Notes under the pieces: generated by a model | Databases searched by the model: none | Told to the model about the DNA's origin: nothing | What the model saw: the letters and a program-made list of their open reading frames with translations, nothing else | Shown here: piece by piece, positions 1 through 54,890 of the stretch | Layout: the number at the start of each line of letters is the position of its first letter | How positions within the stretch are numbered: position 1 is the first letter of the stretch | Source: Paracoccaceae bacterium | GTDB taxonomy: Bacteria > Pseudomonadota > Alphaproteobacteria > Rhodobacterales > Rhodobacteraceae | NCBI GenBank assembly: GCA_014654775.1 | Contig: JACVZW010000035.1 | Span: forward strand, 1-56,551 | Direction: 5' to 3' | DNA length: 56,551 nucleotides | Position numbers and translations under genes: made by a program

Positions 1-104
1 GGGCCAAGGCCGCGCCGCAGACCGAAGGCGGGTTCGACTTCGATCTGGGCGGGGCATCGGATGATGATCTGGACGCGCGATTCAAGCGCCGCGATGCAGC
101 GTGA
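1..104 (+). CDS. C-terminal end of an unidentified protein (partial)
   Basis: The window opens inside an open frame that reads from base 3 to a TGA at 102-104. Its last 33 or so residues are hydrophilic: acidic and glycine-rich in the middle (GGFDFDLGGASDDD) and basic at the end (DARFKRRDAA). This looks like a flexible C-terminal tail rather than a folded domain. The start lies outside the window, so family and function cannot be named. A hairpin follows five bases after the stop and probably ends its transcript. That the frame is coding is inferred from its codon bias and from the terminator position. Confidence 0.5.
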   Translation, partial: AKAAPQTEGGFDFDLGGASDDDLDARFKRRDAA

Positions 105-108
105 CGGT

Positions 109-132
109 ATGCGGCCCGTGTCAGGGCCGCAT
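109..132 (+). terminator. Hairpin behind the first, partial gene
   Basis: A perfect 9-bp stem (ATGCGGCCC at 109-117 with GGGCCGCAT at 124-132) and a 6-base loop begin five bases after the TGA at 104. There is no T-run, so it would be a factor-assisted or weak intrinsic terminator. Confidence 0.5.
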
Positions 133-395
133 GCCGCTCTCTTGCCGGCAGCGAGCGCTGAGGAGGGCGTCCTTGTTCCTGCCTGAGACGGGGTGCCGCC
201 GGCTGCTAAGTCGGCGGCTCATGCTGCCGCAAAACTCACTGAGGGCTGTCGTTCGTTCTGTGCGGGGCGAACGGCTGCCCTCAGCCCCGTTCAGACACTT
301 CTCGGCGCCAAAGCCATTGCCCAACTCCAAGCCCGAGGCGCTGCACGCCTTGGCAGGCAAGTCGGCACAGAGGCGGTCGGCAGTCTCGGTGTCGC
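133..395. other. Gene-free stretch with a large imperfect hairpin
   Basis: I see no convincing gene in this 263-base stretch. The short frames crossing it have no ribosome site and no recognisable domain. It contains one long stem: CTGAGGGC (239-246) pairs with GCCCTCAG (277-284), and inside it CGTTCG (250-255) pairs with CGAACG (268-273) across a 3x3 internal loop. It lies downstream of both flanking genes (the plus-strand tail and the minus-strand lactonase stop at 396), so it could be a shared termination or stability element or a small RNA. Confidence 0.3.
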
Positions 396-1283
396 CTATC
401 CCATCCAATCAGGGGCAAGCGATGGTTCTTCAATCCCCCGCGTGGTGGCAGTGAAGGCAAGAAGATCGCCATTCCAAGGCAGATCCGCTTGGTCTGTCTG
501 ACCGGGGAAGAGGCTTCCCGTCGTGACCATCACGCGCCGCAGGTCCGTTCCTCCGAAGGCGAGGGATGTCACGTTCCGTGCCGGGATCGACACATCCTGC
601 AGCCTTGCACCTGTGGGGGACCATCGGCTGATCCGTCCGCCGTCCCAATGGCCGACGTAGAGCGTGCCGTCGCGATCCACCGTCATCCCATCGGGATAGC
701 CCTCTGCCGGGTCTATCGTGGCAAGGACGGCCTGCGCCACAGGCGCGCCCGTCGCATCAAGGTCGAACCGCAACAGGCGTCGCCCGAAGGTATCGGCGAA
801 ATAGGCCGTGCGGCCGTCCGGTGCAAAGGCGGGGCCGTTCGAGACGGTGAAGCCAGCGGCCACCTCGGTCACCTTGCCCTGCGCAATGCGCCACAGCCGC
901 CCAATCGGCGCCGACTCGCCCGCATCCGACGACCCCAGCCAGAGCGCCCCATGCCGATCCACCTTGCCATCGTTGAAGATCGTCCCCTCGGGTAGGTCGA
1001 TCAGAGAGGGCAGGGGGCTGACCTCCCCAGTTGCCAGCGACAGCCGGTGAAATCCCCGCACGGATACCAGCAGCGCCGTCCCGTCCGTCCAACGCGCGAG
1101 ACATGCGAGGTCCTCGGCAAACCCCTCGGCGATAACCGAATTGAGTCCCGTTTGGGGGTCATGGCAATGCACCTGCCGCCCCTGCAGATCCAGCCAGAGC
1201 CACAGGTCCCGCCCGGGCAGCCAAAGCGGGGATTCCCCCACCCGCGCGCCTGCTGCCGCAAGCCGTTCCACCCGCCCACTCAT
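396..1283 (-). CDS. SMP-30/gluconolactonase (LRE) family sugar lactonase
   Basis: This 295-residue six-bladed beta-propeller of the SMP-30/gluconolactonase/luciferin-regenerating family hydrolyses sugar-acid lactones to the open aldonic acid with a single bound divalent metal. The family marks are present: the metal-binding Glu17 in GESPLW, the FNDGK segment, the Asn in VSNGPAFAPDG, and the Asp in YPDGMTVD followed by GTLYVGHWDGG. There is no signal peptide, so it is cytoplasmic. It is the last gene of a leftward catabolic operon and its ATG overlaps the stop of the upstream dehydratase by 4 bases. In this context it would act between a sugar 1-dehydrogenase (SDR) and the enolase-superfamily dehydratase. 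The exact sugar is unknown. Confidence 0.9.
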   Translation of the reverse strand: MSGRVERLAAAGARVGESPLWLPGRDLWLWLDLQGRQVHCHDPQTGLNSVIAEGFAEDLACLARWTDGTALLVSVRGFHRLSLATGEVSPLPSLIDLPEGTIFNDGKVDRHGALWLGSSDAGESAPIGRLWRIAQGKVTEVAAGFTVSNGPAFAPDGRTAYFADTFGRRLLRFDLDATGAPVAQAVLATIDPAEGYPDGMTVDRDGTLYVGHWDGGRISRWSPTGARLQDVSIPARNVTSLAFGGTDLRRVMVTTGSLFPGQTDQADLPWNGDLLAFTATTRGIEEPSLAPDWMG

Positions 1284-2449
1284 GGCTTGGCCGAGGCGAA
1301 GAGCACCCGCCCCCCCACCTTGATCTCCACCTCTACCGCATAGCGGCGCAGCGCCTCGGGGTTCACCTCCACCCCAAGCCCCGGCCCCTCGGGCAGGCGG
1401 ATCAGCCCGTCCGCCCCCGGTTCGATCCGTGTCAAGGTGAGGTCGCGGGCCAAGGGTTGGAGGCCGGTCGGGAATTCGCAGATGCGGTGATGTTCAAGCC
1501 CGACATAGGGTTGCAGGGAGGCCGAGAGGGCGAGGTTCGAGGTGAAAGTGTGGTTCACATAGGTCACGCCCGCAGCCGCCGCACGTTCCGCCACGCGCCG
1601 CGCGGGCGCAAGGCCACCGACCCGCCCGGTATCGATCTGTACGAAACCGGCATGGCCGAACTCGATGAGATGCTCGGCCATGGATGCGTTATGCGCGGCT
1701 TCCCCGCCGGCCAGCGGCACCTTCGACCGGGCCGCCAGCGCGGCATAGGCCCCTAGGGCCGACCCGCCGAAGGGCTCTTCCAGCCATGCCGCGCGGGCGG
1801 CCTCCAGCGCGGGAAGCCGCAGGGCGGCGGCCTCCACGTCCTCGCCGAAGATCTGGCCCGCATCGATCAGCAGGACGCCGTCCTCGCCCAGCCCGGCCCG
1901 CGCCGCCTCCAGATGCCGGATATCCTCGGCCAGATCGAGGCCGAAGGGCGTCCAGCCGAACTTTGCTGCCGTGAACCCCGCCGCCCGGATGGCCTGCGCG
2001 CGCGCGCCCGTTTCTTCCGGGGTGGTGCCAAAGAGGACCGAGGCATAGGGGAGTTTTGGATGCGCCCGCTCCTGCCCCAGCAGTTTCCACGCCGGTTCCC
2101 CGCGCGCCTTGCCCAGGGCATCCCACAGCGCGATCTCAACCCCTGACCAGGTGTGAGAGGCTTGCAGCAGGTCCATGCTGTTATAAGCCACATCCGCCGC
2201 CATCGCGGCGATGTCCTCTGGCCCGTTCAGGGCGCGCCCAAGGACGGACTCCCCCACCGGCCGGCAGGCCCCGTGCGACATGGGCGCGACCCATGCTGCG
2301 ATTGAGGGCAACGGTGACGCCTCGCATTCGCCCCAGCCGACATGGCCACCCGCGCTGACCCGGACGACAAGCGCATCCTGGCTGCCATCGGCGGCGGTCG
2401 TCACCTCGGGCATGGAGAGGTAGAAGAAATCAACGGCGTCGATGCGCAT
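1280..2449 (-). CDS. Mandelate racemase/muconate lactonizing enzyme family sugar-acid dehydratase
   Basis: A 389-residue enolase-superfamily protein with the N-terminal capping domain (1-125) and a C-terminal TIM barrel. Visible active-site elements are Lys163 in AAKFGW, metal ligands Asp196 (LLIDAGQ), Glu224/225 (WLEEPF) and Glu250 (AGGEAAHN), and the His-Asp dyad Asp273 (QIDTGRVGG) and His300 (VNHTF), which put it in the mandelate racemase subgroup. Members mostly dehydrate aldonic acids to 2-keto-3-deoxy acids. Linked to a lactonase, SDRs, an aldose epimerase and a sugar ABC importer, it is most likely the dehydratase of a non-phosphorylative deoxysugar or pentose route of the rhamnonate or fuconate type. 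Substrate assignment is inference. Its start lies 17 bases inside the preceding epimerase gene. Confidence 0.9.
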   Translation of the reverse strand: MRIDAVDFFYLSMPEVTTAADGSQDALVVRVSAGGHVGWGECEASPLPSIAAWVAPMSHGACRPVGESVLGRALNGPEDIAAMAADVAYNSMDLLQASHTWSGVEIALWDALGKARGEPAWKLLGQERAHPKLPYASVLFGTTPEETGARAQAIRAAGFTAAKFGWTPFGLDLAEDIRHLEAARAGLGEDGVLLIDAGQIFGEDVEAAALRLPALEAARAAWLEEPFGGSALGAYAALAARSKVPLAGGEAAHNASMAEHLIEFGHAGFVQIDTGRVGGLAPARRVAERAAAAGVTYVNHTFTSNLALSASLQPYVGLEHHRICEFPTGLQPLARDLTLTRIEPGADGLIRLPEGPGLGVEVNPEALRRYAVEVEIKVGGRVLFASAKP

Positions 2450-3404
2450 GGGGTCCTCGGTCTTTGCTGTCTGGAGTCTCGATGGTCAGGGAGAGGTCGC
2501 TGTGGCGCGTCTCGCCTGAGGTAAGGTCGATCACATGCCCCCCCGCCGCGCGGGCGGCGGCAAGGCCGGTGGCGGGCCATGTGCTGCAAGGCTCGATCCC
2601 GATCATCCGCGCCTGCCCATTCCACGGCGCTTCCGGGGTTCCCCCCGTCTCCACCCAGAACCAGGCCAGCGGCCATGGATCGGCACGCCAGTCCAGCCGC
2701 ACCGCCAGCGAGCCATCCGCTCGTGCAAGCCGCGCCCAAGGGCCCCCCGCGAAATCCGTCAGACAGGCCAGCAGCGCCGCGCCCTCGGGCGGGGCGGACA
2801 TATCCACCCGCCCCGCCTTTCCAGACAGATGCGGCCAGTCCCCCGCCGCGCCGGGGATCAACGGATTTGCCGCCGGATCATAGGTCGCACAGGCCCGCAG
2901 CCCGCGCGCCCCGGTCTCCACCCGCACCGGCCCTGCCAAAAGATCGCCCCCAAGCGTCACATGCTGACCCCAGACGACGCGGCAGGCTCCCTCTGCGCGC
3001 ACAGTCTCGTGCAGATCCAACCGCGCCCCCACCAGCGTGAAGCGCCGAGTCATCACCACCGGCACGGCCTCATAGCGCCGCGTCAGGATCAGTTCGGCAC
3101 CGTCCCGGTCCATCTCCCAAGGCGTCACCGATCCCTCGCCGTGAAACCCGTGCCGCGCGTCCCCGTCAGTGCAGGCATCGCCAGCATTTGGAAACATCAC
3201 GGGCCACCCTCCGCCCCAGCGCGACAGCCATTCCGCCTCATCCCCCGCGCCCACCGGAAGCGGGCCGCCCTTCCCCTGCCAAGGTGGCCGCGCCAGCACC
3301 TCCGCCCCCGAAGGCAGATGCCGCAGGCTGGTGACCGTGCCCCCCATCCCCGGCGTGATCTCTGCCCGAAGCGTGCCGTTCTGCAGGACCACGGTCGTGG
3401 TCAT
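2430..3404 (-). CDS. Aldose 1-epimerase (galactose mutarotase-like)
   Basis: A 324-residue galactose-mutarotase superfamily protein that interconverts alpha and beta anomers of aldoses in the cytoplasm. The start MTTTVVLQNG is chosen at 3404 because its ATG overlaps the TGA of the upstream permease (ATGA); the open frame extends further only as a shadow of that permease. Family-typical features are the early glycine-rich GMGGTVTSL strand, the NAGDAC/RHGFHGEGSVTPW segment carrying the catalytic His region, and the late region with WAR, LDWRADPWPLAWFWVETGG and MIGIEPCSTWP. It sits between the transporter genes and the dehydratase, so it probably supplies the correct anomer to the sugar 1-dehydrogenase. 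Confidence 0.85.
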   Translation of the reverse strand: MTTTVVLQNGTLRAEITPGMGGTVTSLRHLPSGAEVLARPPWQGKGGPLPVGAGDEAEWLSRWGGGWPVMFPNAGDACTDGDARHGFHGEGSVTPWEMDRDGAELILTRRYEAVPVVMTRRFTLVGARLDLHETVRAEGACRVVWGQHVTLGGDLLAGPVRVETGARGLRACATYDPAANPLIPGAAGDWPHLSGKAGRVDMSAPPEGAALLACLTDFAGGPWARLARADGSLAVRLDWRADPWPLAWFWVETGGTPEAPWNGQARMIGIEPCSTWPATGLAAARAAGGHVIDLTSGETRHSDLSLTIETPDSKDRGPHAHRRR

Positions 3405-4213
3405 TTGACCGCCCCTGCCATCAGCCCGCGCACGAAATGCCGCTGGAAGGTGAGGTAGAGGATCAGCATCGGCGCCGCCGCCACGGCCATGCCCGCCATG
3501 GTTAGCGGAATCTGGTTGTTGTAGCGCCCCTGAAAGACCGCGATCCCGGCCATTACCGTCTTCTTCGCATCGTCCTGCAGAAAGATCACCGCCATCAGCA
3601 GATCGTTCCACACGAACAGCGCATTGACGATCACCAAAGTCAGCAAGGGCGCCAGCGACAGGGGCAGGACCACCCGCGTCAATATCTGCAGATGCGATGC
3701 CCCGTCCATCACCGCCGCATCGATCAGTTCCTGCGGCAGCGATCTGAAGAAGGTGACCAGCAGATAGACGGAAAACGGCGTGATCAACCCAGCATAGATG
3801 ATGATCGCGCCGCCATAAGTGCTGATCAACCCAAGCCGCGTGTAAAGCACAAAGAGCGGCACGATCAGAACGACTGGTGGCACCGCCATCAGGGCGGTGG
3901 AGATCGCAAGCAGCGCATCCTTTCCCCTGAACTCCATCCGCGCGATGGCGTAGGCGGCAAGGCAGGCCACGATGAGCGACAGCCCCACAGACCCGACGAC
4001 AAGGATCAGGCTGTTGGCCATCCAGAGGAAGATCGGCGTTTCGAACAGGATCTGACGGAAATGGTCGAAGACGAAGGCATCGGGCCAGCCCGTTTTGTTG
4101 GCCTGATACTCCTCCTGCGCCTTCAGCGCGGTCACCAGCATGAAGACGGTGGGGATCAGCGCGATGAGGGAGGCCACACCAAGCGCCAGATGGGGCAGGG
4201 GGCGGGACCGCAT
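3401..4213 (-). CDS. Carbohydrate ABC transporter permease (MalG type)
   Basis: A 270-residue inner-membrane permease of the carbohydrate-uptake-1 family with about six membrane segments. The start MRSRPLPHLALG is chosen because its ATG overlaps the stop of the partner permease. The EAA loop that docks the ATPase is recognisable near residues 175-195 (ELIDAAVMDGASHLQILTRVVLPL), followed by two further membrane segments. It pairs with the MalF-type permease at 4213-5082 and the binding protein at 5138-6496. No ATPase gene is found in this cluster, so the energising subunit must be encoded elsewhere, as for multi-use MalK/UgpC/MsiK-type ATPases. Confidence 0.92.
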   Translation of the reverse strand: MRSRPLPHLALGVASLIALIPTVFMLVTALKAQEEYQANKTGWPDAFVFDHFRQILFETPIFLWMANSLILVVGSVGLSLIVACLAAYAIARMEFRGKDALLAISTALMAVPPVVLIVPLFVLYTRLGLISTYGGAIIIYAGLITPFSVYLLVTFFRSLPQELIDAAVMDGASHLQILTRVVLPLSLAPLLTLVIVNALFVWNDLLMAVIFLQDDAKKTVMAGIAVFQGRYNNQIPLTMAGMAVAAAPMLILYLTFQRHFVRGLMAGAVK

Positions 4214-5082
4214 CACTCCGCCTCCCGCCGCCGCACGCGGAACAAGGCCCAGATCAGCAGCAGCGACACGGCAAACAGCATCACGCTCACCGCCGCCGCT
4301 ATGCCGGGAAGGCTGGTGCGGATCAGCGCGTTGAAGATGTAAAGCTCGATCACCATCGTGGCCGTCCCGGGCCCACCCCGCCCGCCGCCGATCACATAGA
4401 CATAGGCAAAGACCGCCGACAGCATTGTGATCGCACTGATCACCACGAAAAACTCGATCACCCCTCGCATCTGCGGGATCAGCACGAACCACGCCCGCTG
4501 CCGCCAACTTGCGCCGTCCAGCCGCGCTGCCTCGATCAGGCTTTCGTCCAGCGCCATGAGCCGGGACAGGAACAGGATCACCCCCAGCGCCGTCTCGCGC
4601 CAGACGATCAGCCCCATCACCGTCCACAGCGCGACATCGGCAGACCCGATCCAGTCCAGCACCATGAAATCCAGTGAGAGCGCCGTCAGGATGGCGTTCA
4701 CGGGACCCGAGAATTGGAACATCTCCTTCATCACCACGGCGATGATCGGGATGGCAAGGATATAGGGCAGGAACAGGATCGTGCGGTGGATGCGCCATCC
4801 CGGCAGCCGCTCGTACAGCAGCAGGGCCAGCGTCAACGCAACCAGGACCATCACGGGAATGGTCATAAACAACTTAAGGTTATGACCGACGCTTTCCCAG
4901 AACAGCGGCTGGTTCAGCACCAGTTCGTAATTCCGCAGGCCGATCCAAGGCCCGTCGATGCCCCGCACCTGCTTGAAGCTGAACTCCACCAGCCGGATCA
5001 GCGACAGGCCGAAGACGAAGGCCAGCAGGCAGATCAGCGGCAGGACGAAGAGATAGGGGACAAGCGGGCTGTTGCGGCGCAT
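4213..5082 (-). CDS. Carbohydrate ABC transporter permease (MalF type)
   Basis: A 289-residue permease. MRRNSPLVPYLFVLPL is the natural start: a short basic N-terminus directly before the first membrane segment. Around six hydrophobic segments can be read, and the EAA motif appears as ESLIEAARLDGASWRQRAWFVLIPQMRG. It overlaps the start of the MalG-type partner by 4 bases (translational coupling) and follows the binding-protein gene after a 55-base gap that contains a strong hairpin. Together the two permeases form the membrane channel of a sugar importer. The substrate is not predictable from sequence; the catabolic genes alongside suggest a deoxy-sugar, pentose or related acid. Confidence 0.92.
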   Translation of the reverse strand: MRRNSPLVPYLFVLPLICLLAFVFGLSLIRLVEFSFKQVRGIDGPWIGLRNYELVLNQPLFWESVGHNLKLFMTIPVMVLVALTLALLLYERLPGWRIHRTILFLPYILAIPIIAVVMKEMFQFSGPVNAILTALSLDFMVLDWIGSADVALWTVMGLIVWRETALGVILFLSRLMALDESLIEAARLDGASWRQRAWFVLIPQMRGVIEFFVVISAITMLSAVFAYVYVIGGGRGGPGTATMVIELYIFNALIRTSLPGIAAAVSVMLFAVSLLLIWALFRVRRREAE

Positions 5083-5105
5083 CCGGGGGTGTTCCAAGAA
5101 GGGGT

Positions 5106-5129
5106 GGGGCGGCCCGATCCGGCCGCCCC
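5106..5129 (-). terminator. Hairpin between binding-protein gene and permease genes
   Basis: A perfect 9-bp GC stem (5106-5114 with 5121-5129, 6-base loop) starts nine bases after the binding-protein stop. No T-run follows on the minus strand. In sugar ABC operons such hairpins stabilise the binding-protein mRNA and reduce expression of the downstream permeases; that role is inferred here. Confidence 0.6.
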
Positions 5130-5137
5130 GCCGAAGA

Positions 5138-6496
5138 TCAGCCAGCCGACAGGTCGCTCGCCCACTTCTGGTACTTTTCGACAAGGTCAGGGTTGAAGTC
5201 GCGCCATTCCTGCGCCACCCGAGCAGCCAAATCACCCGCCTCCTCGCCCGACATTCCTGCTGTGATGATGTTCTGCCCCGTCGGAATCGCCGCCTGTTCG
5301 TAGAACTGGCCGGGCATCAGGTTGGTGATGTTGGTGATGTTGTTGCCCTTGCCCCAGCGCGTCCACAGGTCCTTGACCGACGGGTCCGAGATCACGCTGT
5401 CGTCAAAGCCCGAGGCGGCGGGAATCCAGCCCGTCGCGTCCCAGAAGCTTGCCAACTGCTCGGGTGCGTTCAGGAATTCCATGAACCGGGCCGCCGCCTC
5501 TTTCTGCTCCGACCCTGCGGCGATGCCCATGCCCTGCATGTCGACCACCGGGCGGCCCGCCAGCGCGCCCTGCCCGAAGACCGGCAGCGCCATGCAGCCG
5601 ATCCGGCCATTCGTCGCCTTGGCATCGGCCGGCAAGCGCGTGCCGATGGACGAACAAATGCCCAACTGCCCATTCACGCACAGATCGATCCCCGGATAGA
5701 GGCCCAGCGACGCCATGTCCTTGTTCAGGAAGCCCGCATCGCGCAGTTCTTGCAGCTTCACCCAATGCTGGTGATAGCGCGGCTCGCGGAAATCCAGATC
5801 GCCGATGAACAGGTTGACCGCATCCCCCACGCTGTCGAGGTTCTGCGACAGCCCATGCGTGATGTACCATTCCGCCCAGTACCCGTCCTGCACCCCGCCG
5901 CCGAAGGGTTCCACCCCGGCGGTCTTCAGCGCCTCGCAGGCGGCCAGCAATTCCTCCCACGTCGCAGGCGGCGCGTCGGCGTTCAGGCCCGCTTTGTCGA
6001 ACAGGTCCTTGTTGTAATACCAGGGCATCGGCAGAGGATACCACCCCATCCGCCAGACATGTCCGTCGAAACGCGACAGCGGCCCGTGGTTCGACGCGGC
6101 CAGAAGATCGGCATCCATCAGCCCGTCCAGATGCGCCAGATAGCCCAGCCAGACGCTTTCCATATGGTAGATGCCGTTCCACAGATACTGCAGGTCGGGC
6201 GGATCGCCCGCCGCTGCCGCCGTCTGGAACTGCGAGATCACCACGGCAGTGTCCTGCAGCATGGGCTTGACCTGCGCCTCGGTGAAGGCCGCGATGGCCT
6301 TGTCGAGATAGGCCTGCAGGCCGGGCAGTTCTTGTTCGCCCCACCACCACATGTCCAGCGTCGGTGTCTGCGCCAGTGCGCGGCCCGCCAACCCCCCGGT
6401 CAGCGTCAGCGCCCCTAGCCCGGCCCCCGCCTGCAGCAGACGGCGTCGATCCATCAGGCCGGCACCAGTGGGCGAGCGTCTTGCGGTCGTCGTCAT
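5138..6496 (-). CDS. Extracellular sugar-binding protein of the ABC importer (Tat-type signal)
   Basis: A 452-residue family-1 extracellular solute-binding protein that captures sugar in the periplasm and delivers it to the two permeases encoded downstream. The start MTTTARRSPTG is preferred because AGGGAG lies about 7 bases upstream; an upstream ATG at 6532 has no such site. The N-terminus carries a twin-arginine-like signal (MDRRRLLQAGAGLGALTLTG, residues 15-34) ending in ALAQT, a likely signal-peptidase I site. The mature part starts with LDMWWWGEQE, typical of this family, and has the FMEFLNAPEQ segment near the C-terminus. A 36-base gap separates it from the upstream SDR gene, so the two are probably co-transcribed. 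Confidence 0.92.
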   Translation of the reverse strand: MTTTARRSPTGAGLMDRRRLLQAGAGLGALTLTGGLAGRALAQTPTLDMWWWGEQELPGLQAYLDKAIAAFTEAQVKPMLQDTAVVISQFQTAAAAGDPPDLQYLWNGIYHMESVWLGYLAHLDGLMDADLLAASNHGPLSRFDGHVWRMGWYPLPMPWYYNKDLFDKAGLNADAPPATWEELLAACEALKTAGVEPFGGGVQDGYWAEWYITHGLSQNLDSVGDAVNLFIGDLDFREPRYHQHWVKLQELRDAGFLNKDMASLGLYPGIDLCVNGQLGICSSIGTRLPADAKATNGRIGCMALPVFGQGALAGRPVVDMQGMGIAAGSEQKEAAARFMEFLNAPEQLASFWDATGWIPAASGFDDSVISDPSVKDLWTRWGKGNNITNITNLMPGQFYEQAAIPTGQNIITAGMSGEEAGDLAARVAQEWRDFNPDLVEKYQKWASDLSAG

Positions 6497-6532
6497 GTCG
6501 TTCTCCCTGTTTCGTCTTGTTGCTTTGTTCAC

Positions 6533-7309
6533 TCAGAAAGTCGCGGTCATTCCCCCGTCGACCACCAGCACCTGACCCGTCATCCAGCGGCAGAGCGGGG
6601 AGGCGAGGAACACCACCGTCCCGGCAACGTCCTCTGGCTCACCCGCCCGTCGCAGGGGGATACGCCCCTGTCCGACATACCAGTCGCGAAAGACGGGCGT
6701 TTCCGTCTCGTCCACCCCATCGACCACCGCCATGGGCGTGCGCAGGAAACCCGGGGCCACCGCGTTGACGAGGATGCCATGCGGGGCGAGTTCCACCGCC
6801 ATGGATTTCGTCAGACCGATTACCCCGCCTTTGGCCGCGTTGTAGGACCCGCAGAGCCCGCTTGAGACGAAGCCCTGGACCGAAGAGATGTGGATGATCC
6901 GCCCCCGCCCTGCTTTGACCATATGCGGCGCAACCAACTTCGATCCGCGCCACACGGCCTCAAGGTTCACGGCGAGGGTGCGGTCCCAATCTTGCTGCGT
7001 GTCATCAAGGATGCTGCGCGGCGGCGGGTTGATGCCCGCATTGTTCACCAGTACGTCGATCCCCCGCCGCGCGGCCAGATCCGCCACCAGCGCGGCATAG
7101 CCCGTGCCATCCGTCACATCCAGCGCATGCGCCTCTGCCGATCCTCCGACCGCGCGGATCACCTCCGCCGCCGTGGCCACCGTGTCGGGGTTGCGGTCGA
7201 TCAGCGCCACATGCGCGCCTTGCGCCGCCATCTCGGCGGCGATGCCCTCACCCAGACCTTGGCCTGCGCCCGTCACAAGGCATGTGAGTCCGGCAAGCAG
7301 CCCGCTCAC
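6533..7309 (-). CDS. SDR-family NAD(P)-dependent oxidoreductase
   Basis: A 258-residue classical short-chain dehydrogenase. It has the Rossmann motif TGAGQGLG (14-20), an Asp at the end of strand 2 (LIDRN, Asp38) that favours NAD over NADP, NNAG (89-92), catalytic Ser142/143, and Tyr156 with Lys160 (SYNAAK). It ends with the usual PEDVAGTVVFLASPLCRWMTGQVLVVDGG. As the first gene of the leftward sugar operon, directly downstream of the tandem palindromes at 7374-7409, it is a good candidate for the sugar 1-dehydrogenase feeding the lactonase. A keto-deoxy-acid dehydrogenase role is the alternative. Confidence 0.9.
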   Translation of the reverse strand: MSGLLAGLTCLVTGAGQGLGEGIAAEMAAQGAHVALIDRNPDTVATAAEVIRAVGGSAEAHALDVTDGTGYAALVADLAARRGIDVLVNNAGINPPPRSILDDTQQDWDRTLAVNLEAVWRGSKLVAPHMVKAGRGRIIHISSVQGFVSSGLCGSYNAAKGGVIGLTKSMAVELAPHGILVNAVAPGFLRTPMAVVDGVDETETPVFRDWYVGQGRIPLRRAGEPEDVAGTVVFLASPLCRWMTGQVLVVDGGMTATF

Positions 7310-7373
7310 GCGCGGCCTCGGCAGGGTCTGTCGGAAAGGGTCAAGCGCGACATCCGTTCCTCCCTGTCCCGTT

Positions 7374-7409
7374 TTCCGAAATTTCGGAATTGCATCCGGG
7401 ATTTCGAAC
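7374..7409. promoter_or_regulatory. Two tandem palindromic operators in the divergent promoter region
   Basis: A perfect 16-bp palindrome TTCCGAAATTTCGGAA occupies 7374-7389. A second copy, matching at 11 of 16 positions, lies at 7394-7409. The centres are exactly 20 bp apart (two helical turns), so two dimers would bind the same face. The site lies in the 158-bp region between the divergent SDR genes and one gene away from the IclR regulator, whose family binds such palindromes. It most likely controls both operons. Regulator identity is inferred from position. Confidence 0.65.
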
Positions 7410-7467
7410 AGCGTAAGGTGGACCTAAGCCATGAGTCAAGCAGCGCGACAGGCGCGGGAGGGGACGG

Positions 7468-8208
7468 ATGGACGACAGGGGTCTTGCAGGGCGCGTGGCC
7501 GTGGTGACGGGGGGCGCACAGGGCATCGGCCTCGCCGTCGCCGAACGCTTGGCGCAGGCGGGGGCAAAGCTCGCGATCTGGGACATGGATGCCACGCTGG
7601 CCGAGGCCGAGGCCGCCCGGCTCGGCGGGCGGGCCTTCGCACTCGACGTCTCCGACACCGAAGCCACCGCCCGCGCCGCCGCCGCGACCGAGGCGGCGCT
7701 AGGTCCTGCCGCGATCCTTGTCACCTCGGCGGGCATCGCAGGCTCCAACGGCCCGGTCGTGGCCTATGACCCCGCCGAATGGCGGCGCATCCTCGACATC
7801 AACCTTACCGGCACCTTCAACTGCTGCCGCGCCTTGATCCCGCAGATGCGGGCGCAGGGCTATGGCCGCGTCGTCACCATCGCCTCTATCGCCGGGAAAG
7901 AAGGCAACCCCAATGCCGCAGCCTATTCTGCCTCGAAGGCCGGGGTGATCGCTCTGACAAAATCGCTGGGCAAGGAACATGCGGGCGAAAACATCGCCGT
8001 GAACTGCGTCACCCCCGCCGCCGCCCGCACCCGCATCTTCGACCAGATGAAGCAGGAACACATCGACTATATGCTCTCCAAGATCCCGCGCGGCCGCTTC
8101 CTTCTGGTCGAAGAAGCCGCCGCCATGATCCTTTGGCTTGCCTCTGCCGAGAACAGCTTCACCACTGGCGCGGTCTTCGACCTGTCGGGTGGGCGGGCGA
8201 CATATTGA
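7468..8208 (+). CDS. SDR-family oxidoreductase, similar to 2-keto-3-deoxy-sugar-acid 4-dehydrogenases
   Basis: A 246-residue short-chain dehydrogenase: TGGAQGIG (14-21), strand-2 Asp39 (AIWDMD) suggesting NAD preference, Ser140, and Tyr153 with Lys157 (YSASK). The usual NNAG is replaced by TSAG (86-89). The segment NPNAAAYSASKAGVIALTKSLGKE is reminiscent of dehydrogenases oxidising 2-keto-3-deoxy-L-rhamnonate or -fuconate in the diketo-hydrolase pathway; I rate that as plausible, not shown. The gene diverges from the sugar operon and is followed by an IclR regulator whose ATG overlaps its stop (TGATG), so enzyme and regulator are translationally coupled. No hydrolase or aldolase for the final cleavage step is visible nearby. 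Confidence 0.88.
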   Translation: MDDRGLAGRVAVVTGGAQGIGLAVAERLAQAGAKLAIWDMDATLAEAEAARLGGRAFALDVSDTEATARAAAATEAALGPAAILVTSAGIAGSNGPVVAYDPAEWRRILDINLTGTFNCCRALIPQMRAQGYGRVVTIASIAGKEGNPNAAAYSASKAGVIALTKSLGKEHAGENIAVNCVTPAAARTRIFDQMKQEHIDYMLSKIPRGRFLLVEEAAAMILWLASAENSFTTGAVFDLSGGRATY

Positions 8209-9120: not shown

Positions 9121-10011
9121 TCAGGTACTGCGCGCGATTTCGACCAGATCGACGCTGTGCCCGCCCGTCTGCCCGCCACCGAGCCGCAACATTCCGGCCA
9201 CCGGGGCCACGTCTCCGTAATCGCGGCCAAAGCCGATGCGGATATGGCCGTCGCCCGCAAGGCAGGCATTCGTCGGATCGTAGTCCAGCCAGCCGCCGTC
9301 CAGACCTGTCCAGGCCTGTACCCAGGCATGCATGGCATCCGCCCCGACGAGCCGGGATTGGCCGGGCGGGGGGGCCGTGCGCAGGTAGCCCGAGACATAG
9401 GCCGCCGGTATCCCCAGCGCGCGCAAGCCCGCGATCATGATTTGCGCGAAGTCCTGACAGACTCCGCGGCGCTGGGCGAAGGCGCGGTCCGGGCCGGTAT
9501 CGACATCCGTCGCCGCGCTGTCGAAGGCCATGTCCGCATGCAGCGCCTGACCCAAAGCCGCCACGGCGGCGCGCACCGTAGGGGCCCCGGCTGTGGCGTG
9601 ACGGGCGAAATCGGCGATGGCGGCATTTTGCGGGATGCGGGGCGAGGGGGGCAGGAAATGATGCGGCGAGGCCGCGTCGAGGCCGCCATGGGCAGCGATC
9701 TCGGCAGCAAGATCGGCTGGCGCAGGTGAGACGTCGAGGCCGGGTGCAGGAAAGCGGCGGTCCACTTCGGCCGTCAGGGTGAGGGCAAAATCGGTCAGAC
9801 CGGGCGCGAGGGCGATCTCGATCACCTTTGTGCCGAAGAAATCGGTGAAGTCGCGGCGATCCAGCGGCGATGGGGCAATGGCGAGGCGGGAGTTCCGCAC
9901 CTCCTGCTGCAGCGGCAGGGTGGCAGGAAGGATGCGCAAATGCTGCCGCCCGCCACCCGCTGGCGGCGAGAAACTGTAATGGATCTTCAGGGTCAGCGCG
10001 TAGGTCGTCAC
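9121..10011 (-). CDS. Transglutaminase-like family protein (peptidase-like), third gene of the amidoligase operon
   Basis: A 296-residue protein with a bacterial transglutaminase N-terminal region (1-90) and a transglutaminase-like cysteine-hydrolase core. The triad is visible: Cys185 in RRGVCQDFAQ, His228 in DAMHAWVQ, Asp245 in WLDYDPTN. Stand-alone bacterial members act as amide hydrolases or peptidases rather than cross-linkers. The start is a GTG at 10009-10011 overlapping the TGA of the upstream ATP-grasp/alpha-E gene (GTGA), so the two are translationally coupled. No signal peptide is seen, so it acts in the cytoplasm. Its likely job is to trim or cleave peptides made or attached by the ligases in the same operon. 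Confidence 0.9.
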   Translation of the reverse strand: MTTYALTLKIHYSFSPPAGGGRQHLRILPATLPLQQEVRNSRLAIAPSPLDRRDFTDFFGTKVIEIALAPGLTDFALTLTAEVDRRFPAPGLDVSPAPADLAAEIAAHGGLDAASPHHFLPPSPRIPQNAAIADFARHATAGAPTVRAAVAALGQALHADMAFDSAATDVDTGPDRAFAQRRGVCQDFAQIMIAGLRALGIPAAYVSGYLRTAPPPGQSRLVGADAMHAWVQAWTGLDGGWLDYDPTNACLAGDGHIRIGFGRDYGDVAPVAGMLRLGGGQTGGHSVDLVEIARST

Positions 10012-12416
10012 CGGAGATAGGTCTCCGTCAGCAGGTCAGAGAGCGCGGCCATCTCAGCCCGCAAGTCCAGCAATGCAGCGCTGTCCAAGGTTTCGGGCAG
10101 GCTGGTCGCGGCTTCGGTCTGCAGGCGCAGCATGGCGCGGGCAAGCGGCGACAGGACGCCCGCACGGCCTGCGCCGGGCAGCATTTCCACCTGTTCTGCC
10201 ATCCCGTCGATCTGGTTGCGCAGCGAGCGGGGGTTCATCGGATCGAGCGCGAGAAGGTCGATCACCGTCTCGCGTGAGGCGGCAACGGTGAAGCGGCGGC
10301 GATGGGTCAGGATGCTGTCGCCCAACTCGATGCAGAGGTCGAGCGCGCCGGGCGCTGCCTCTGGATCAGTAAGGTCGGCAAGGATGCCCGCAATCCCCAT
10401 GCCGCGCTCCAGCATTCGTCCCAGCGTGAGGAAGCGCCAGCCGAGAAAACGGTACATGTTTTCATGCACGAGGCCCGAGAAGCCAGCGAGCTTGCGCAGC
10501 AGGATAGAATGGGCGCGGGCGGCATCGTCGCCGGGCTGCAAATGCCCACCCATGCGGCGCATGGATTTCGACAGGTCCGAGAGCGCGTTCCAGCCATCGG
10601 GGGAGAAGCGGTCGCGCACCTGTGCCGCGCTGGCCACTGCGCTGTCGAGGACGGAGAGCAAGCCCTGCGGGATGCCTTGCGCCGGGTCCACGTCATAAGA
10701 GGCGAGCAGCCTGTCCATGGCCACAAGAAGCGGGCGCGCGGCTTGTCCGCTTTCGGCCAGTCGCATGTTGCGGGCACGTAGCAGACGAACGATCACCTCG
10801 GTCCGTTCTACATAGCGACCCAGCCAGAACAGGTTGTCGGCGGCGCGCGAGGGCAGGGCGCCCGGTTCAGGGCGTGCATAGGCCCCGGCGCGGGGTTCAA
10901 CCAGCGTGTCGAGCGCCACTTCGCGCGGGCTGACGATCCAAACATCCGCTGCGCTGCCGCCGCGCTGCATGGCGAGCGCGGTGGGGTCCTGCGATGCGCC
11001 GATGCGGGCGAATCCGCCGGGCATGGCCTGCCAGCCCTGCGCGGTGCGGGCAAGGAAGACGCGCAGCGACAGAGGCCGAGCTTCCAGCCGACCCTTCACA
11101 AGCGCGGGCGTGGTGGAAAGCGACACCACCTCCTGCGCGACATGGTCGGCCCCCTGTGCCGCAAGGATGTGGGCAAGGTCTTCGGGGGCAAGCTGCGCGG
11201 CCAGAACGGGGTCTTCCTGCCTGTCAAAGGGCAGTCCCGTGCCAAGCGCGGCGCTGAGAACCAAGCCCGAGGGATCGGCCAGAACCTGCGCCCGCTCGGC
11301 CGCGCCGCCGCACCACCAAGTTGCTATGTTGGGCATCAGCAGCTCCGCACCCAAGAGGCGCAGCGCAAGCTTCGGCATGAAGGCCATCAGCGCCCGCGTC
11401 TCTAGGACGCCGGAGCCGAGGGCGTTGACCATCGTCAGACCCTGATCGCGCAGCGCCGAGACCATACCCGGCGTGCCGATCCGGCTGGCGGGGTTGAGTT
11501 CGAGCGGGTCGGCATAGCCCGAATCCAGCCTGCGCCAGAGCACATCGACCGAGCGCAACCCCGAGACGGTGCGCACCATCAGCCGCCCGTCGCTGACCAC
11601 CAGATCCTCGCCCTGCACCAGCGTGAAGCCGAGATAGCGGGCGATCCAAGCCTGTTCGTAATAGGTCTCGTTCAACGGGCCGGGGGTGAGGATCGCCACC
11701 CGCCCGCTTGGATCGGGCCGCAGATCGAGAAGGGCGTCGCGGAACAGACGGAAGAAGCCTGCAAGGCGGTGGATGTTGAGGTTCTGATAGACATCGGCGA
11801 AGGCGCGGCTGGTGGCGACGCGGTTTTCAAGAGCGAAGCCCGCGCCGGACGGAGCCTGCGTCCGGTCGGCCAGCACCCACCATTTGCCGTCAGGTCCGCG
11901 CCCGATCTCGAAGGCAAGGAAGTGGAGGAAATGGCCGGACCGGGGCTGGATACCCACCATCGGGCGCAGCCATTCGGGATTGGCGGCAATCAGGGCGGCG
12001 GGCAGATGGCCTTCGGCGACAAGGCGGTTGGGGCCATAGAGATCGGCCATCAGCCGTTCAAGCAGATCGGCGCGCTGGGTCAGGGCGGCGCAGATGCCGT
12101 TCCATTCGCTTTCTGCGATAAGGACGGGCATGTGCGACAGCGGCCAAGCCCGTTCGGTGGATTGGCCCGCGCCATATTGGCGGTAGAAGACGCCGGAGTC
12201 CCTAAGATATTGATCGGCGCGCGACAGGGCGTGGATACGCGCCTCGTCCGTCATCTCTTGCAGATGGGCGAGGAGGGGTTCCCAGAGCGGGCGGATGCGG
12301 CCTTGCGCATCCATCATCTCGTCCTGCAAACCCTTTGGCGGCGCATAGGAGCCAAGCCCGAGCGCGCCGGCGGTCGGGGGGCTGCCTGCCTGTGGCTGTG
12401 CCGGGCTGCGGTCCAT
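10008..12416 (-). CDS. Circularly permuted ATP-grasp / alpha-E fusion protein
   Basis: An 802-residue two-domain protein. Residues of about 75-470 match the circularly permuted ATP-grasp type (ESEWNGICAALTQRA, DLYGPNRLVAEGHLP, ILTPGPLNETYYEQAWIARYLGF, ELNPASRIGTPGMVSA). Residues from about 520 to the end match the all-helical alpha-E domain (ADNLFWLGRYVERTEVIVRLLRAR). In many genomes these are separate neighbouring genes; here they are fused. Permuted ATP-grasps are predicted carboxylate-amine ligases, and alpha-E is a partner of unknown function. The ATG at 12416 is chosen as the first ATG after the upstream stop (12424); only a TTG extension precedes it. It is the middle gene of a tightly packed operon. 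Confidence 0.88.
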   Translation of the reverse strand: MDRSPAQPQAGSPPTAGALGLGSYAPPKGLQDEMMDAQGRIRPLWEPLLAHLQEMTDEARIHALSRADQYLRDSGVFYRQYGAGQSTERAWPLSHMPVLIAESEWNGICAALTQRADLLERLMADLYGPNRLVAEGHLPAALIAANPEWLRPMVGIQPRSGHFLHFLAFEIGRGPDGKWWVLADRTQAPSGAGFALENRVATSRAFADVYQNLNIHRLAGFFRLFRDALLDLRPDPSGRVAILTPGPLNETYYEQAWIARYLGFTLVQGEDLVVSDGRLMVRTVSGLRSVDVLWRRLDSGYADPLELNPASRIGTPGMVSALRDQGLTMVNALGSGVLETRALMAFMPKLALRLLGAELLMPNIATWWCGGAAERAQVLADPSGLVLSAALGTGLPFDRQEDPVLAAQLAPEDLAHILAAQGADHVAQEVVSLSTTPALVKGRLEARPLSLRVFLARTAQGWQAMPGGFARIGASQDPTALAMQRGGSAADVWIVSPREVALDTLVEPRAGAYARPEPGALPSRAADNLFWLGRYVERTEVIVRLLRARNMRLAESGQAARPLLVAMDRLLASYDVDPAQGIPQGLLSVLDSAVASAAQVRDRFSPDGWNALSDLSKSMRRMGGHLQPGDDAARAHSILLRKLAGFSGLVHENMYRFLGWRFLTLGRMLERGMGIAGILADLTDPEAAPGALDLCIELGDSILTHRRRFTVAASRETVIDLLALDPMNPRSLRNQIDGMAEQVEMLPGAGRAGVLSPLARAMLRLQTEAATSLPETLDSAALLDLRAEMAALSDLLTETYLR

Positions 12417-12423
12417 CCCCCGA

Positions 12424-15400
12424 CTAGAGGCCGACGGGGCGGCGCAGGTCAAGCGTCATCGGGAATTCAGCCGACATGGCCTCGGGTAGCGGGGCAAGGC
12501 CCTGCGCGGGGCCATAGCCGAATGGCTGGAACCGTGCCAGACGCCGCGCTTCGGCTTCGTTTCCGTTGACGGGGAAGGTGTCGTAGTTGCGCCCGCCCGG
12601 ATGGGCGACGTGATAGACGCAGCCCCCCAGCGCCCGGTTCGACCAAGTGTCAAAGATCGAAAAGGTCAGTGGGGCCTGCACTGGGATCGCCGGATGTATG
12701 GCAGAGGCTGGTTGCCACGCCTTGTAGCGCACCCCAGCCACGGCGGCCCCGCCCCCGATCGGCACTAGCGGGGCTGTCCGGCCGTTGCAAAGGATGTGGT
12801 AGCGGGCCGGATCGGCGGCGGTCAGCTTTACCTGCAGCCGTTCCGTGGAACTGTCTGTGTAACGCACGGTGCCGCCGATGGCCCCCGTCTCGCCCAGCAC
12901 ATGCCAAGGTTCCAGCGCCTGCCGCAGTTCCAGATGGGCGCCTTCTACCTCCACCTCGCCGCAGAACGGGAAACGGAATTCGGCCTGCGCTGTGAACCAT
13001 TCCTCGCGCAGGTCAAAGCCATGAAGGCGCAGATCGGTCAGCACGTCGCGGAAATCCTGCCAGACCATGTCGGGCAGCATGAAGCGATCATGCAGCGCGG
13101 TGCCCCAGCGGGTAAGGGGGCCCTGCGCCGGGTTGATCCAGAACCGCGCGATCAGGGCCCGGATCAAGAGTTGCTGGGCAAGGCTCATCCGCGCGTCGGG
13201 GGGCATCTCGAAGCCGCGGAATTCGACCAGACCCAGCCGCCCGGTGGGGCCGTCGGGGGAATAGAGCTTGTCGATGCAGATTTCCGCCCGATGGGTGTTG
13301 CCGGTCACGTCGGTCAGCATGTTGCGCAAGAGCCTATCCAACAGCCAAGGCTGCGGCGGCATGTCCGGCCCCGGCGGGGGGATTTGGGCCAGCGCGATCT
13401 CCAGCTCATAAAGCGCGTCGTGTCGGGCCTCGTCGATGCGGGGGGCCTGGCTCGTGGGGCCGATGAAAAGACCGGAAAAGAGGTAGGACAGCGACGGATG
13501 CCGGTTCCAGTGCAGGATGAGGCTGGCCAGAAGGTCAGGACGCCGCAGGAAGGGGCTGTCCAGCGTGGTGCGCCCGCCCACGACAACATGGTTGCCCCCG
13601 CCCGTGCCGCAATGCTTGCCGTCGATCATGAATTTGTCGGCGCCAAGGCGGGTCAGGCGCGCCTCTTCGTAGACGCCTGTGGTGATCGAAACGCAGTCGT
13701 CCCAGCTTGCGGCCGGGTGGACGTTCACCTCGATCACACCAGGATCAGGGGCGACGCGGATCACGTTCAGGCGCGGGTCATGCGGGGGGGCGTAACCTTC
13801 GATGTGCAGTTTCAGGCCCAGCCGCAGCGCCGCCGCCTCGGCCACATGGATCAGGTCGAGGTAGTCTTCCAGCGCCGACATAGGTGGCATGAAAACGCAA
13901 AGCCGCCCGTCGCGCGCCTCGACCGAAAGGGCAGTGCGGACATGGCCGTCGATTTCCGTCGTGATCTGTTCCACCCGCGATTGGGCTGCGCCATCGGCCA
14001 CGAAACTGGCCCGCGCCTGCGCCTTGGGGACGGGGTCAAGCGGAGGGGGTTCTGGCAGCGGCGCCCGGTCGAGGGTCGGGTCCATCGGGTTGACATAGGG
14101 GTATTGTGCAGGCGTCAGATAGGGCAGGCTGGCCAAGGGCAGGCGATAGCCCACCGGGCTGTCACCGGGCACGAGGAGCAGCTTGCCGCGCCGAAGACGC
14201 CAGCGTTCGGAATTCCACTTCCGTCGCCCGCCCTTCCCCTGCCATGGCTGCACGGGCAGCACATAACCCACCGGCTTCGTCAGCCCGCGCGCGAAGACCT
14301 GCGCGATGCGGTGGCGGGCCTCGGGGTCTTCGAGTTCCGAGTTTTCGGGGGTGACATTGGCAGGAAGGTTGGCTTCCTTCACCAGCCATTCGGCGGGGTC
14401 CTCGAAGGCGGGCAGGACGTGGTCGGCGGGAATCTCAAGCTCTGCTGCGATTTCCTGCATCAGGGCCTCGGCCTGCGCGGCCGTCGCGCCCTGATCGACG
14501 CCCTCTTCCGCGATCAGGTCAGGGTTTTGCCAGATCGGCTGGCTGTCGGTCCGCCAGTAGAGCGAGAAGGTCCAGCGTGGCAGCGTCTCGCCCGGATACC
14601 ATTTACCCTGCCCGTAATGCAGGAACCCCCCCGGCGCGAAGCGGCGTCGCAGCCGCCGGATCAGGCGGTCTGCCAGCGTGCGCTTGGTCGGCCCCACGGC
14701 GGCGGTGTTCCATTCGGCGCTTTCGAAATCGTCGATGGAGACGAAGGTTGGCTCCCCCCCCATCGTCAGGCGCACGTCGTTTTCGGCCAGCACGCGATCC
14801 ACCTTGCGTCCAAGGGCATCGAGCGCCTGCCAGCTTTCCTCGGAAAAGGGTTTGGTGATGCGGGGGTGTTCCGACACACGGGCGACCTGCATGTCGAAGC
14901 GGAACTCGACCTCCGGCACGCCAGCGGCGGAAAAGCCCCCGGCGATGGGGGCGGCGTGGCGGTAATGGGGCGTGGCGGCCAGCGGGATGTGGCTTTCCCC
15001 GGTCAGAAGGCCGGATGTCGGATCAAGCCCGATCCAGCCCGCGCCGGGGATGTAGACCTCGCACCAGGCATGCAGGTCGGTGAAATCCACCTCCGTTCCG
15101 GTCGGTCCATCGAGCGCCTTGAGATCAGGCTTCAACTGGATCAGGTAACCCGACACGAAGCGTGCGGCAAAGCCGAAATGGCGCAGCGCCTGCACCAGAA
15201 GCCACGAGGAATCGCGGCAGGACCCTATCGCCTTGCCCAACGTTTCCTCCGGCGTCTGCACGCCGGGTTCCATGCGGATCGTATAGCCCACTTCGCGCGC
15301 GATACGGGCGTTTAGGGCGACGACGAAATCCACCGTTCGGATGCGGTCGCGCGGGGTGTTGTCTAGGAAGGCCTGCAAAAGCGGCCCCACCGGATCTGCG

Positions 15401-15756
15401 CGGCGATAGATCACAAGGTCATCCACCAGATCGGCGGGATAGTCGAAGGGCCATGTCTCGGCGCTGTCTTCGACGAAGAAGTCGAAGGGGTTGTAGACCG
15501 TCATGTCGGCGACAAGATCGATCTCGATCTTCAGTTCCGTCACCGGTTCGGGAAAGACGAAGCGCGCCAGCCAGTTGCCGTAGGGATCCTGCTGGAGGTT
15601 CACGAAGTGGTTCGACGGATGGACCTTCAGCGAATGGGACAGAACCCGCGTCCGGCTGTGCGGGGCGGGGCGCAGACGGATGATCTGGGGGCCCAGCGTG
15701 ACCGGGCGGTCATAGATGTAATGGGTGAGGTGGTGGATGCTGGCCTTGATCGACAT
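12424..15756 (-). CDS. Transglutaminase fused to DUF2126 putative amidoligase
   Basis: A 1110-residue protein. The N-terminus (1-300) has the bacterial transglutaminase N-domain ([18 protein letters not shown]) and a core with Cys180 ([10 protein letters not shown]), His229 (DLHAWCEV) and Asp245 (GLDPTSG). The large C-terminal part (about 310-1110) is DUF2126, described in Pfam as a putative amidoligase of the glutamine-synthetase-like fold. Marks there are [28 protein letters not shown] and [16 protein letters not shown]. The start is set by AGGAG five bases upstream of ATG at 15756. It heads the operon with the ATP-grasp/alpha-E and second transglutaminase genes, combining ATP-dependent amide formation with a papain-like hydrolase in one chain. 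The substrate is unknown. Confidence 0.9.
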
Positions 15757-15891
15757 TGAGGCTCCTTCGTTGGGACCAGCACTAGCAGGCCAAGGCAGGG
15801 CTGCAAACGAAAGCGGCGGGGATGAAGGGGCAAGCTTCGTAGCCCACGCCCCTTTTCCCGCCATTCTGCCTGTTTTTCGATCAGGTCGCTG

Positions 15892-16629
15892 TCAACGCCC
15901 CAGCGCCTGCAACACCAGTTCGGCCGCCGCCGCGCCGGAATACTGCTGCTGACCGGTGATCAGGTTGCCGTCGCGCAGGGCGAAGGGCTTGAACATGCCG
16001 GAGGTCACGAAGTTGGTCCCGTCGATCTTTTCTGACTCTTCCTCGATCCAGAAGGGCTGGATGCGCTTGCCCACAAAGGCATCTGCGAAGGCCTCTTCGG
16101 AATTGGCGAAACCGGTCCACGTCTTGCCCTTCACCAGCAGGTCACCGTTGGAAAGCCGCGTCTTCAGCAGCACGCAGGTGCCGTGGCACACGATGGCGAC
16201 GATCTTGCCTGCCTCATAGGCGCGGGCGACGAAGGCGTGAAGGTCGGTGTCGTCGATCATCGTCACCATCGGCGACTGCCCGCCCGCGACGAAAACCGCG
16301 TCATAGCCCGCGACATCCACCTCGGTGACGGATTTGGTTCCTTTCAGCAGCGCTGCATGGCTTTGAGACTTTTTGAACCCGAGCGAGAGAAAATCATGGG
16401 CGGAATAGCCGCTGGCATCCTCGGGGTCGGAATAGCCGTCCGCGATCAGGTCGCCGCCTTTGGGGCTGATGATGTCGATGGCATACCCAGCCTCGGCGAA
16501 GGTCCAGTAGGGATGGGTCAGTTCCGCCCACCAAAAGCCGATCGGCCAGCCGGTGGTGGGCGAGGTGCCGGGATTGGCCGCGATGATCAGCACTTTCTTC
16601 TTGCCGTGGATGTCGAGGGATGCGGACAT
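15892..16629 (-). CDS. DJ-1/PfpI family protein (type 1 glutamine amidotransferase-like, Hsp31-like)
   Basis: A 245-residue class-I glutamine-amidotransferase-like protein of the large DJ-1/PfpI type. Nucleophile Cys148 lies in the elbow IVCHGTC next to His149, and Glu36 in WWAELTHPYW fits the acidic residue of Hsp31-type glyoxalase III/deglycase enzymes. The N-terminal strand KKVLIIAANPGTSPTTGWPIGFW is typical. Such proteins detoxify reactive carbonyls (methylglyoxal) or act as chaperones. It is the last gene of a four-gene operon with an ABM protein, a GFA zinc protein and a Rossmann reductase, which supports an aldehyde or electrophile detoxification theme; that link is inference. Confidence 0.88.
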   Translation of the reverse strand: MSASLDIHGKKKVLIIAANPGTSPTTGWPIGFWWAELTHPYWTFAEAGYAIDIISPKGGDLIADGYSDPEDASGYSAHDFLSLGFKKSQSHAALLKGTKSVTEVDVAGYDAVFVAGGQSPMVTMIDDTDLHAFVARAYEAGKIVAIVCHGTCVLLKTRLSNGDLLVKGKTWTGFANSEEAFADAFVGKRIQPFWIEEESEKIDGTNFVTSGMFKPFALRDGNLITGQQQYSGAAAAELVLQALGR

Positions 16630-52211: not shown

Positions 52212-52266
52212 CACATGCCCCCCATCGTCGCGCCACCTTGCCCCGCGCAAAGGGCGGGCCGCAAGA

Positions 52267-52749: not shown

Positions 52750-52856
52750 CGGCAACCTCATGAGCGACGCAGGCCAGACTGGCAGGGAAAGGCGGGCTTG
52801 GCGAGGGCGGCGTGGGGCGGGGTGCGCCCATAGGGTGGGGTTCCACCCCACGACTG

Positions 52857-52887
52857 ACAAAAGCAAAGGGGCGCCCGCAGGCGCCCC
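52857..52887 (-). terminator. Intrinsic terminator of aspS
   Basis: On the minus strand GGGGCGCC-TGCG-GGCGCCCC (52868-52887) is followed by TTTGCTTTTGT (52857-52867). It begins 26 bases after the aspS stop (52913). Strong stem, tetraloop and U-rich tail. Confidence 0.8.
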
Positions 52888-52912
52888 CCCTCATCCCGCG
52901 ACGGCAAAGCCC

Positions 52913-54694: not shown

Positions 54695-54788
54695 CATGTG
54701 TCCCCTGACGAGGCTGAAAGGATCATCGCGCCGATACACCCCTTGGCGCGGGCGAAGTCAAGGCCCGCAGGGGGGCAGGCGCGCCTCC

Positions 54789-54857: not shown

Positions 54858-54890
54858 GACAACGCGAACCATTCCCGGAAGGGCAATCCC

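Follow-up and report, generated by a model that had tools for sequence, protein, structure and literature searches.

An amidoligase system built around the DUF2126 family was reportedly predicted by Iyer et al. in 2009, a work known to us through papers that cite it. Another close relative of the locus considered here is the operon of the proteasome-like Ntn hydrolase Anbu. Anbu was named in 2008, and the portions of the literature that were available still describe it as a protein of unknown function. According to the available text of one study, the ATP-grasp protein of the Yersinia Anbu operon freed phosphate from ATP, and Anbu was without peptidase activity (PMC6376114). Here we analyse a three-gene operon on the minus strand (positions 9121-15756) of a 56,551-nucleotide stretch, the window, which is contig JACVZW010000035.1 (C35) of the 4.5 Mb genome of a Paracoccaceae bacterium (GCA_014654775.1). 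Gene 1 (12424-15756, 1110 aa) encodes a transglutaminase-like domain fused to DUF2126, gene 2 (10008-12416, 802 aa) a circularly permuted ATP-grasp fused to an alpha-E domain, and gene 3 (9121-10011, 296 aa) a stand-alone transglutaminase-like enzyme. The reading that we favour, with slightly better than even confidence, is that a pathway of amide-bond ligation and hydrolysis, presumably cytoplasmic, consists of two modules: this operon, with DUF2126, is one, and an Anbu-like operon on another contig is the other.

An Anbu-like operon in the same genome

Contig C7 (locus L011) carries, in a row, genes for an ATP-grasp protein (479 aa), an alpha-E protein (316 aa), a transglutaminase (270 aa) and an Anbu-like protein (240 aa; PF00227 at 37.5 bits). 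The two PF00227 matches of the genome sit on contigs C7 and C75, and none lies on C35. The initial annotation had presented the lack of an adjacent Anbu-type peptidase as peculiar. The lack is real in the window, but it is not unusual and does not extend to the genome. The enzyme classes that the annotation proposed stand, whereas the unusualness it saw in the operon does not, and it had overlooked both the C7 operon and the link of relatives to sigma-54 and nitrogen.

PF09899 (DUF2126) was present in 84 of the 299 proteobacterial genomes drawn, and in 22 of 61 genomes of the same family. Among the 299, both DUF2126 and Anbu occurred in 51, DUF2126 only in 33, Anbu only in 51 and neither in 164 (odds ratio 5.0, p 2.9e-9, relatedness ignored); the corresponding numbers for the 61 family members were 20, 2, 24 and 15 (p 0.018, relatedness likewise ignored). 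The DUF2126, Anbu and alpha-E counts come from three 299-genome draws that agree in the genomes listed and are assumed to be identical in the unlisted ones. Of 70 genomes carrying both, 20 have Anbu no more than 15 kb from DUF2126, at 158-235 bp in four of them, and in Pseudooceanicola pacificus (L080) the Anbu-type operon is divergent from the adjoining DUF2126 operon.

At least two alpha-E matches were found in 76 of the 84 DUF2126 genomes, compared with 11 of the 72 alpha-E genomes that lack DUF2126. The eight exceptions include three genomes (G036, G064 and G212) in which Anbu is 191-235 bp from DUF2126, and two (G097 and G153) that are only 84% and 76% complete. On the Enterobacter roggenkampii plasmid NZ_CP116251.1 (L197, 6603-15794) a five-gene block encodes ATP-grasp, alpha-E, the transglutaminase-DUF2126 fusion, the ATP-grasp-alpha-E fusion and a transglutaminase; no Anbu was found in the 21-kb stretch around it, which has transposase genes at both sides. 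The alpha-E counts and this Anbu-less block suggest that Anbu is a less constant partner of the DUF2126 operon than a second pair of ATP-grasp and alpha-E, and the block shows that the system can travel on plasmids. In a tree of all 21 stand-alone and 37 of the 110 fused ATP-grasp domains, the stand-alone and fused forms separated into two groups with support of 1.0, which suggests that they represent two long-separated enzymes. On the Caballeronia plasmid NZ_CP071132.1 a gene for a putative zinc-binding metallopeptidase (L198, 7814-8875) lies between the modules on the opposite strand. Outside both modules, the window genome contains an isolated gene for a transglutaminase-like protein of about 290 aa (G000:C30:326341-326631, L012) and a weak transglutaminase match with an in-frame TGA, possibly a decayed gene (G000:C18:41118-41399, L008).

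Ligases of the folds concerned form an acyl phosphate that is then attacked by an amine. In the pathway we propose, this reaction would be carried out by two different ATP-grasp enzymes and by the DUF2126 ligase, which is glutamine synthetase (GS)-like; each would convert a carboxylate to the acyl phosphate and couple this to an amine, giving a short peptide or amide conjugate. The alpha-E domains would assist each ATP-grasp, while the transglutaminase-type enzymes, one of them fused to the DUF2126 ligase, would act with Anbu to shorten or cleave the product, whose amino acids would thereby be regained. The domains, the intact triads, the co-occurrence, the two ATP-grasp groups and the sigma-54-like sites of relatives are observed and the GS fold is predicted, whereas the location, substrates and product, the direction and order of the steps and the role of alpha-E are inferred. 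Three types of ligase and several hydrolases, together with nitrogen control in relatives, would fit the building and recycling of a small amide or peptide.

A bolder proposal, to which we give rather less than an even chance, is that the Anbu system has so far lacked its second half and that the DUF2126 operon supplies it: three different ligases, from two ATP-grasp groups and the GS fold, and up to four hydrolases would then form a single pathway for nitrogen starvation, in which an as yet undiscovered amide metabolite or tag is made and recycled. This could explain why Anbu gave no activity when tested by itself, the absent partner module being one possible cause of its missing peptidase activity, and, if the DUF2126 operon is a frequent partner of Anbu, tests of Anbu alone would be incomplete. 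Neither a view of two modules, nor the division of the ATP-grasp domains into two groups, nor a sigma-54 survey of these operons was found in print, in a search outside which most of the subscription literature, including Iyer et al. 2009, lay. That search found no paper naming DUF2126, nor one combining the alpha-E domain with ATP-grasp and transglutaminase.

Catalytic features and predicted folds

Profile searches placed Bact_transglu_N at residues 6-83 (15508-15741) and Transglut_core at residues 143-246 (15019-15330) of gene 1, followed by DUF2126 at residues 282-1105 (12442-14913; 1292.9 bits). Gene 2 comprises CP_ATPgrasp_2 (PF14403; residues 97-472, 11001-12128, 424.9 bits) and Alpha-E (PF04168; residues 521-801, 10014-10856, 182.2 bits), and gene 3 has Bact_transglu_N at residues 4-83 and Transglut_core at residues 134-246; all these features are on the minus strand. 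The domain scores are far beyond chance level, and the searches bear out the three families PF09899, CP_ATPgrasp and Alpha-E that the initial annotation had proposed; an NCBIfam search returned no match for any of the three genes.

The triad Cys180/His229/Asp245 of gene 1 is unchanged in all 120 aligned gene-1 sequences, and Cys185/His228/Asp245 of gene 3 in all 87 aligned gene-3 sequences, the window being included in both and length filters having removed the remaining sequences. The operon thus has, as had been suggested, two transglutaminase-type enzymes with intact triads. It also has two kinds of predicted amide-forming enzyme. The ATP-grasp of gene 2 matches PDB 3n6x (E 2.5e-64), a relative annotated as a putative glutathionylspermidine synthase. 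In the predicted structure of gene 1, residues ~297-945 match glutamine synthetases and are followed by a strand-rich C-terminal part; the fold matches include gamma-glutamylmethylamide synthetase. On this prediction the DUF2126 region adopts the GS fold, which supports its proposed place among the amide-forming enzymes. At the level of sequence, profile alignment of gene 1 with GS gave no signal, and a PDB sequence search with gene 1 returned a single chance row (E 0.68). The conserved E, H and E-x-R motifs of the DUF2126 region are candidates for counterparts of the metal- and substrate-binding residues of GS. The model used replaced an earlier AlphaFold model (12 sequences, pLDDT 62), from which several Foldseek rows were discarded as chance matches with a probability near zero. 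The same genome has ten PF00120 (glutamine-synthetase-family) places, on contigs C7, C9, C14, C30, C71 and C87.

Probable nitrogen control in relatives

The stretch 5' of gene 1 (15757-15891, minus strand) contained no sigma-70 promoter that our search could find, and its best sigma-54-like score, 10.5 of 15, was below threshold. The best sigma-54-like score in the 300 bp upstream of the genome's own Anbu-type operon was 12.5, a value attainable by chance. Relatives gave a different result. When 130 bp 5' of gene 1 were scanned in 120 of the 121 loci sampled (described below), a sigma-54-like -24/-12 element at threshold was present in 11 of 24 non-alpha loci, that is, those of the same phylum but another class (5% in shuffled controls, 0/24 on the reverse strand), compared with 8 of 96 alphaproteobacterial loci (control 6%, reverse strand 8/96). 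At a stricter threshold of 13 the numbers were 5/24 (control 0.7%) and 0/96 (control 1%), respectively. Upstream of alphaproteobacterial Anbu-type ATP-grasp genes such elements occurred in 12 of 20 cases (control 4.75%, reverse strand 2/20), with 14/20 at a threshold of 12 (control 10%) and 9/20 at 13 (control 2%); these 20 genomes were picked by hand, include several close relatives, and had their start codons set by alignment. Thus, judged by sequence, sigma-54 looks to control the DUF2126 operon in non-alpha relatives and the Anbu-type operon in many alphaproteobacteria. The full NtrC consensus palindrome was absent; a relaxed form, GCAC-N7-GTGC, was exact in 6 of 96 alphaproteobacterial upstream stretches (0.6% expected), and these palindromes are possibly NtrC-like sites, a weak lead.

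Published nitrogen data agree with this survey. In the available text of a Burkholderia cenocepacia study, I35_5080-83 are among the shared targets of NtrC and sigma-54, with values of -6.0 to -9.4 in the ntrC mutant table, and are annotated as DUF404/407, DUF403, a transglutaminase and a 'large' transglutaminase protein (PMC5491218). On a replicon of another B. cenocepacia strain (L196) one strand encodes, in order, ATP-grasp, alpha-E, a transglutaminase, the transglutaminase-DUF2126 fusion, the ATP-grasp-alpha-E fusion and a further transglutaminase; from this gene order, in a different strain, I35_5083 would be the transglutaminase-DUF2126 protein. Excerpts of two further reports describe Pseudomonas putida PP_2685-2688 as reacting to nitrogen source or limitation (PMC8050072, PMC7801951), and the accessible part of another gives the site TGGCCCGGCCCTTGC for a Bradyrhizobium CP_ATPgrasp gene (PMC13207237); the sigma-54-like sites of L214 and L215 are letter-identical to it. 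A metagenome study, again as far as its text was available, ties these domains to urea metabolism (PMC3597751). In view of the apparent sigma-54 control in relatives, we think nitrogen limitation the most likely setting of the pathway; nitrogen control of the window operon itself, which has no site at threshold, is conjectural.

It could be argued that such control reflects nitrogen salvage by deamidation, in which transglutaminase-type enzymes free ammonia from glutamine bound in proteins or peptides while ammonia or amines are captured again by the GS-like domain. The available text on Anbu indeed names, as a possibility, a transglutaminase that is supplied by protein degradation and releases ammonia (PMC6376114), and sigma-54/NtrC control in relatives would fit. 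This route, however, needs neither two ATP-grasp ligases nor alpha-E, yet the great majority of DUF2126 genomes have at least two alpha-E matches, and the window genome is already well provided with PF00120 places. We therefore regard deamidation salvage as unlikely.

Operon arrangement and comparison with described systems

The coordinates, strand, domains, triads and GTGA coupling given in the initial annotation were all reproduced by open reading frame and profile searches. Genes 2 and 3 share a four-base GTGA start/stop overlap (10008-10011, minus strand), and a gap of 7 bp separates gene 1 from gene 2. The mechanical open-frame starts of genes 1 and 2 lie further 5', at 15864 and 12452; the gene 1 start at 15756 agrees with the homologue alignment, and that of gene 2 is the first ATG (12416), chosen by us. 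Among the best 80 of 593 matches to gene 1, the closest with a named source is that of Tabrizicola sp. TH137 (97%).

The fusions and the coupling, previously thought peculiar, are in fact typical, as is the gene order. The sample comprised 121 loci, namely the window, the best 80 of the 593 matches (near relatives, rich in alphaproteobacteria) and 40 chosen from the 84 matching genomes at about one per genus. Some of the contigs are truncated. The domain assignments come from phmmer searches with ten query domains of our own at E 1e-5. A further set (A2) combined the window, 84 of 100 listed domains (filtered from 118) and four family loci. Among the families searched, the order transglutaminase-DUF2126, ATP-grasp-alpha-E, transglutaminase was retained on one strand at 103 of the 121 loci, where the gaps between open frames never exceed 581 bp, and at 49 of these 103 comparable loci gene 3 overlaps gene 2 by ATGA or GTGA. 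Sinorhizobium fredii USDA 205 also carries the three-gene operon (L077). At the 18 loci other than the 103, the unit is broken up or reordered, has Anbu inserted, or runs into a contig end. As DUF2126 is common, a nitrogen-linked metabolite or protein modification that is not yet known may be widespread.

On the 5' side of the operon a DJ-1/PfpI gene (15892-16629) lies on the same strand at a distance of 135 bp, and on the 3' side a convergent open frame that encodes IclR domains has its end at 9005. GC skew, in 2-kb steps, is negative at 1-8000, positive at 8001-52000 and negative at 52001-56000 of the window. A conserved extra partner gene was considered and rejected, as the largest neighbour family, ABC transporter ATPases (two representatives), occurs at 37 of 121 loci, yet within 3 kb of gene 1 at only six. 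Aldehyde dehydrogenases (19) and GlgB (17) follow, with glycogen phosphorylase among the families with 15; the recurring families are identified from six representatives only.

The operon might make and break amine conjugates as a nitrogen source, with polyamines or other amines held in linkages of the gamma-glutamyl or glutathionyl type. Gene 2's nearest solved structure, 3n6x, and the gamma-glutamylmethylamide synthetase among the fold matches of gene 1 point in this direction, and ABC and aldehyde dehydrogenase neighbours could serve amine use. It should be emphasized, however, that the name of 3n6x is an annotation and not a demonstrated activity, and that the neighbour families, ABC ATPases, aldehyde dehydrogenases, GlgB and glycogen phosphorylase, are known from those six representatives. 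We consider this explanation improbable, and the least probable of those discussed.

A conserved small substrate protein had also been envisaged. A survey reaching 1.5 kb from the gene block detected no small gene of wide conservation, the largest recurring family of short open frames being present at 13 of 121 loci. This bears on a third possibility, a reversible protein tag in which the ligases attach peptides or amino acids to proteins and the transglutaminases or Anbu remove them. The co-occurrence of ligase and hydrolase domains, in gene 1 even within one chain, is consistent with such a tag, which is listed among the hypotheses for Anbu operons in the available text of PMC6376114. The lack of a widely conserved small gene argues against a tag or target encoded beside the block; one encoded at a distance, or glutamylation of the RimK kind, would have escaped this survey. 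We think a protein tag doubtful, and return to the amide-bond ligation and hydrolysis pathway for comparison with known systems.

The operon is of a kind already predicted. Pfam names PF09899 a 'putative amidoligase enzyme', and, as in the DUF2126 amidoligase system of Iyer et al., the partners are ATP-grasp, alpha-E and transglutaminase, and we know of nothing that sets the window operon apart from that system; all three components of the alpha-E/circularly permuted ATP-grasp/transglutaminase system are present. Gene 1 resembles GS in the predicted fold of residues ~297-945, but differs in that sequence similarity is undetectable, and in its strand-rich C-terminal part and N-terminal transglutaminase-type domain. 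A theme of ATP-grasp, transglutaminase-type protein and peptidase is shared with RloABC, which consists of a retropepsin, an inactive 7-TM transglutaminase and an ATP-grasp (PMC12239564, available text). In contrast with RloABC, the transglutaminase triads of the window operon are intact, and the available part of that description mentions neither alpha-E nor DUF2126; retropepsin families gave no match at E <= 0.001 among nine proteins scanned in or beside the operon. The Anbu operon, in the text available (PMC5666114, PMC6376114) a proposed peptide-synthesis system with a P. putida member that responds to nitrogen, shares the ATP-grasp, alpha-E and transglutaminase families. The window operon differs from it in that ATP-grasp and alpha-E form one chain, belonging to a separate ATP-grasp group, and in that it has a second transglutaminase, fused to DUF2126, and no Anbu gene.

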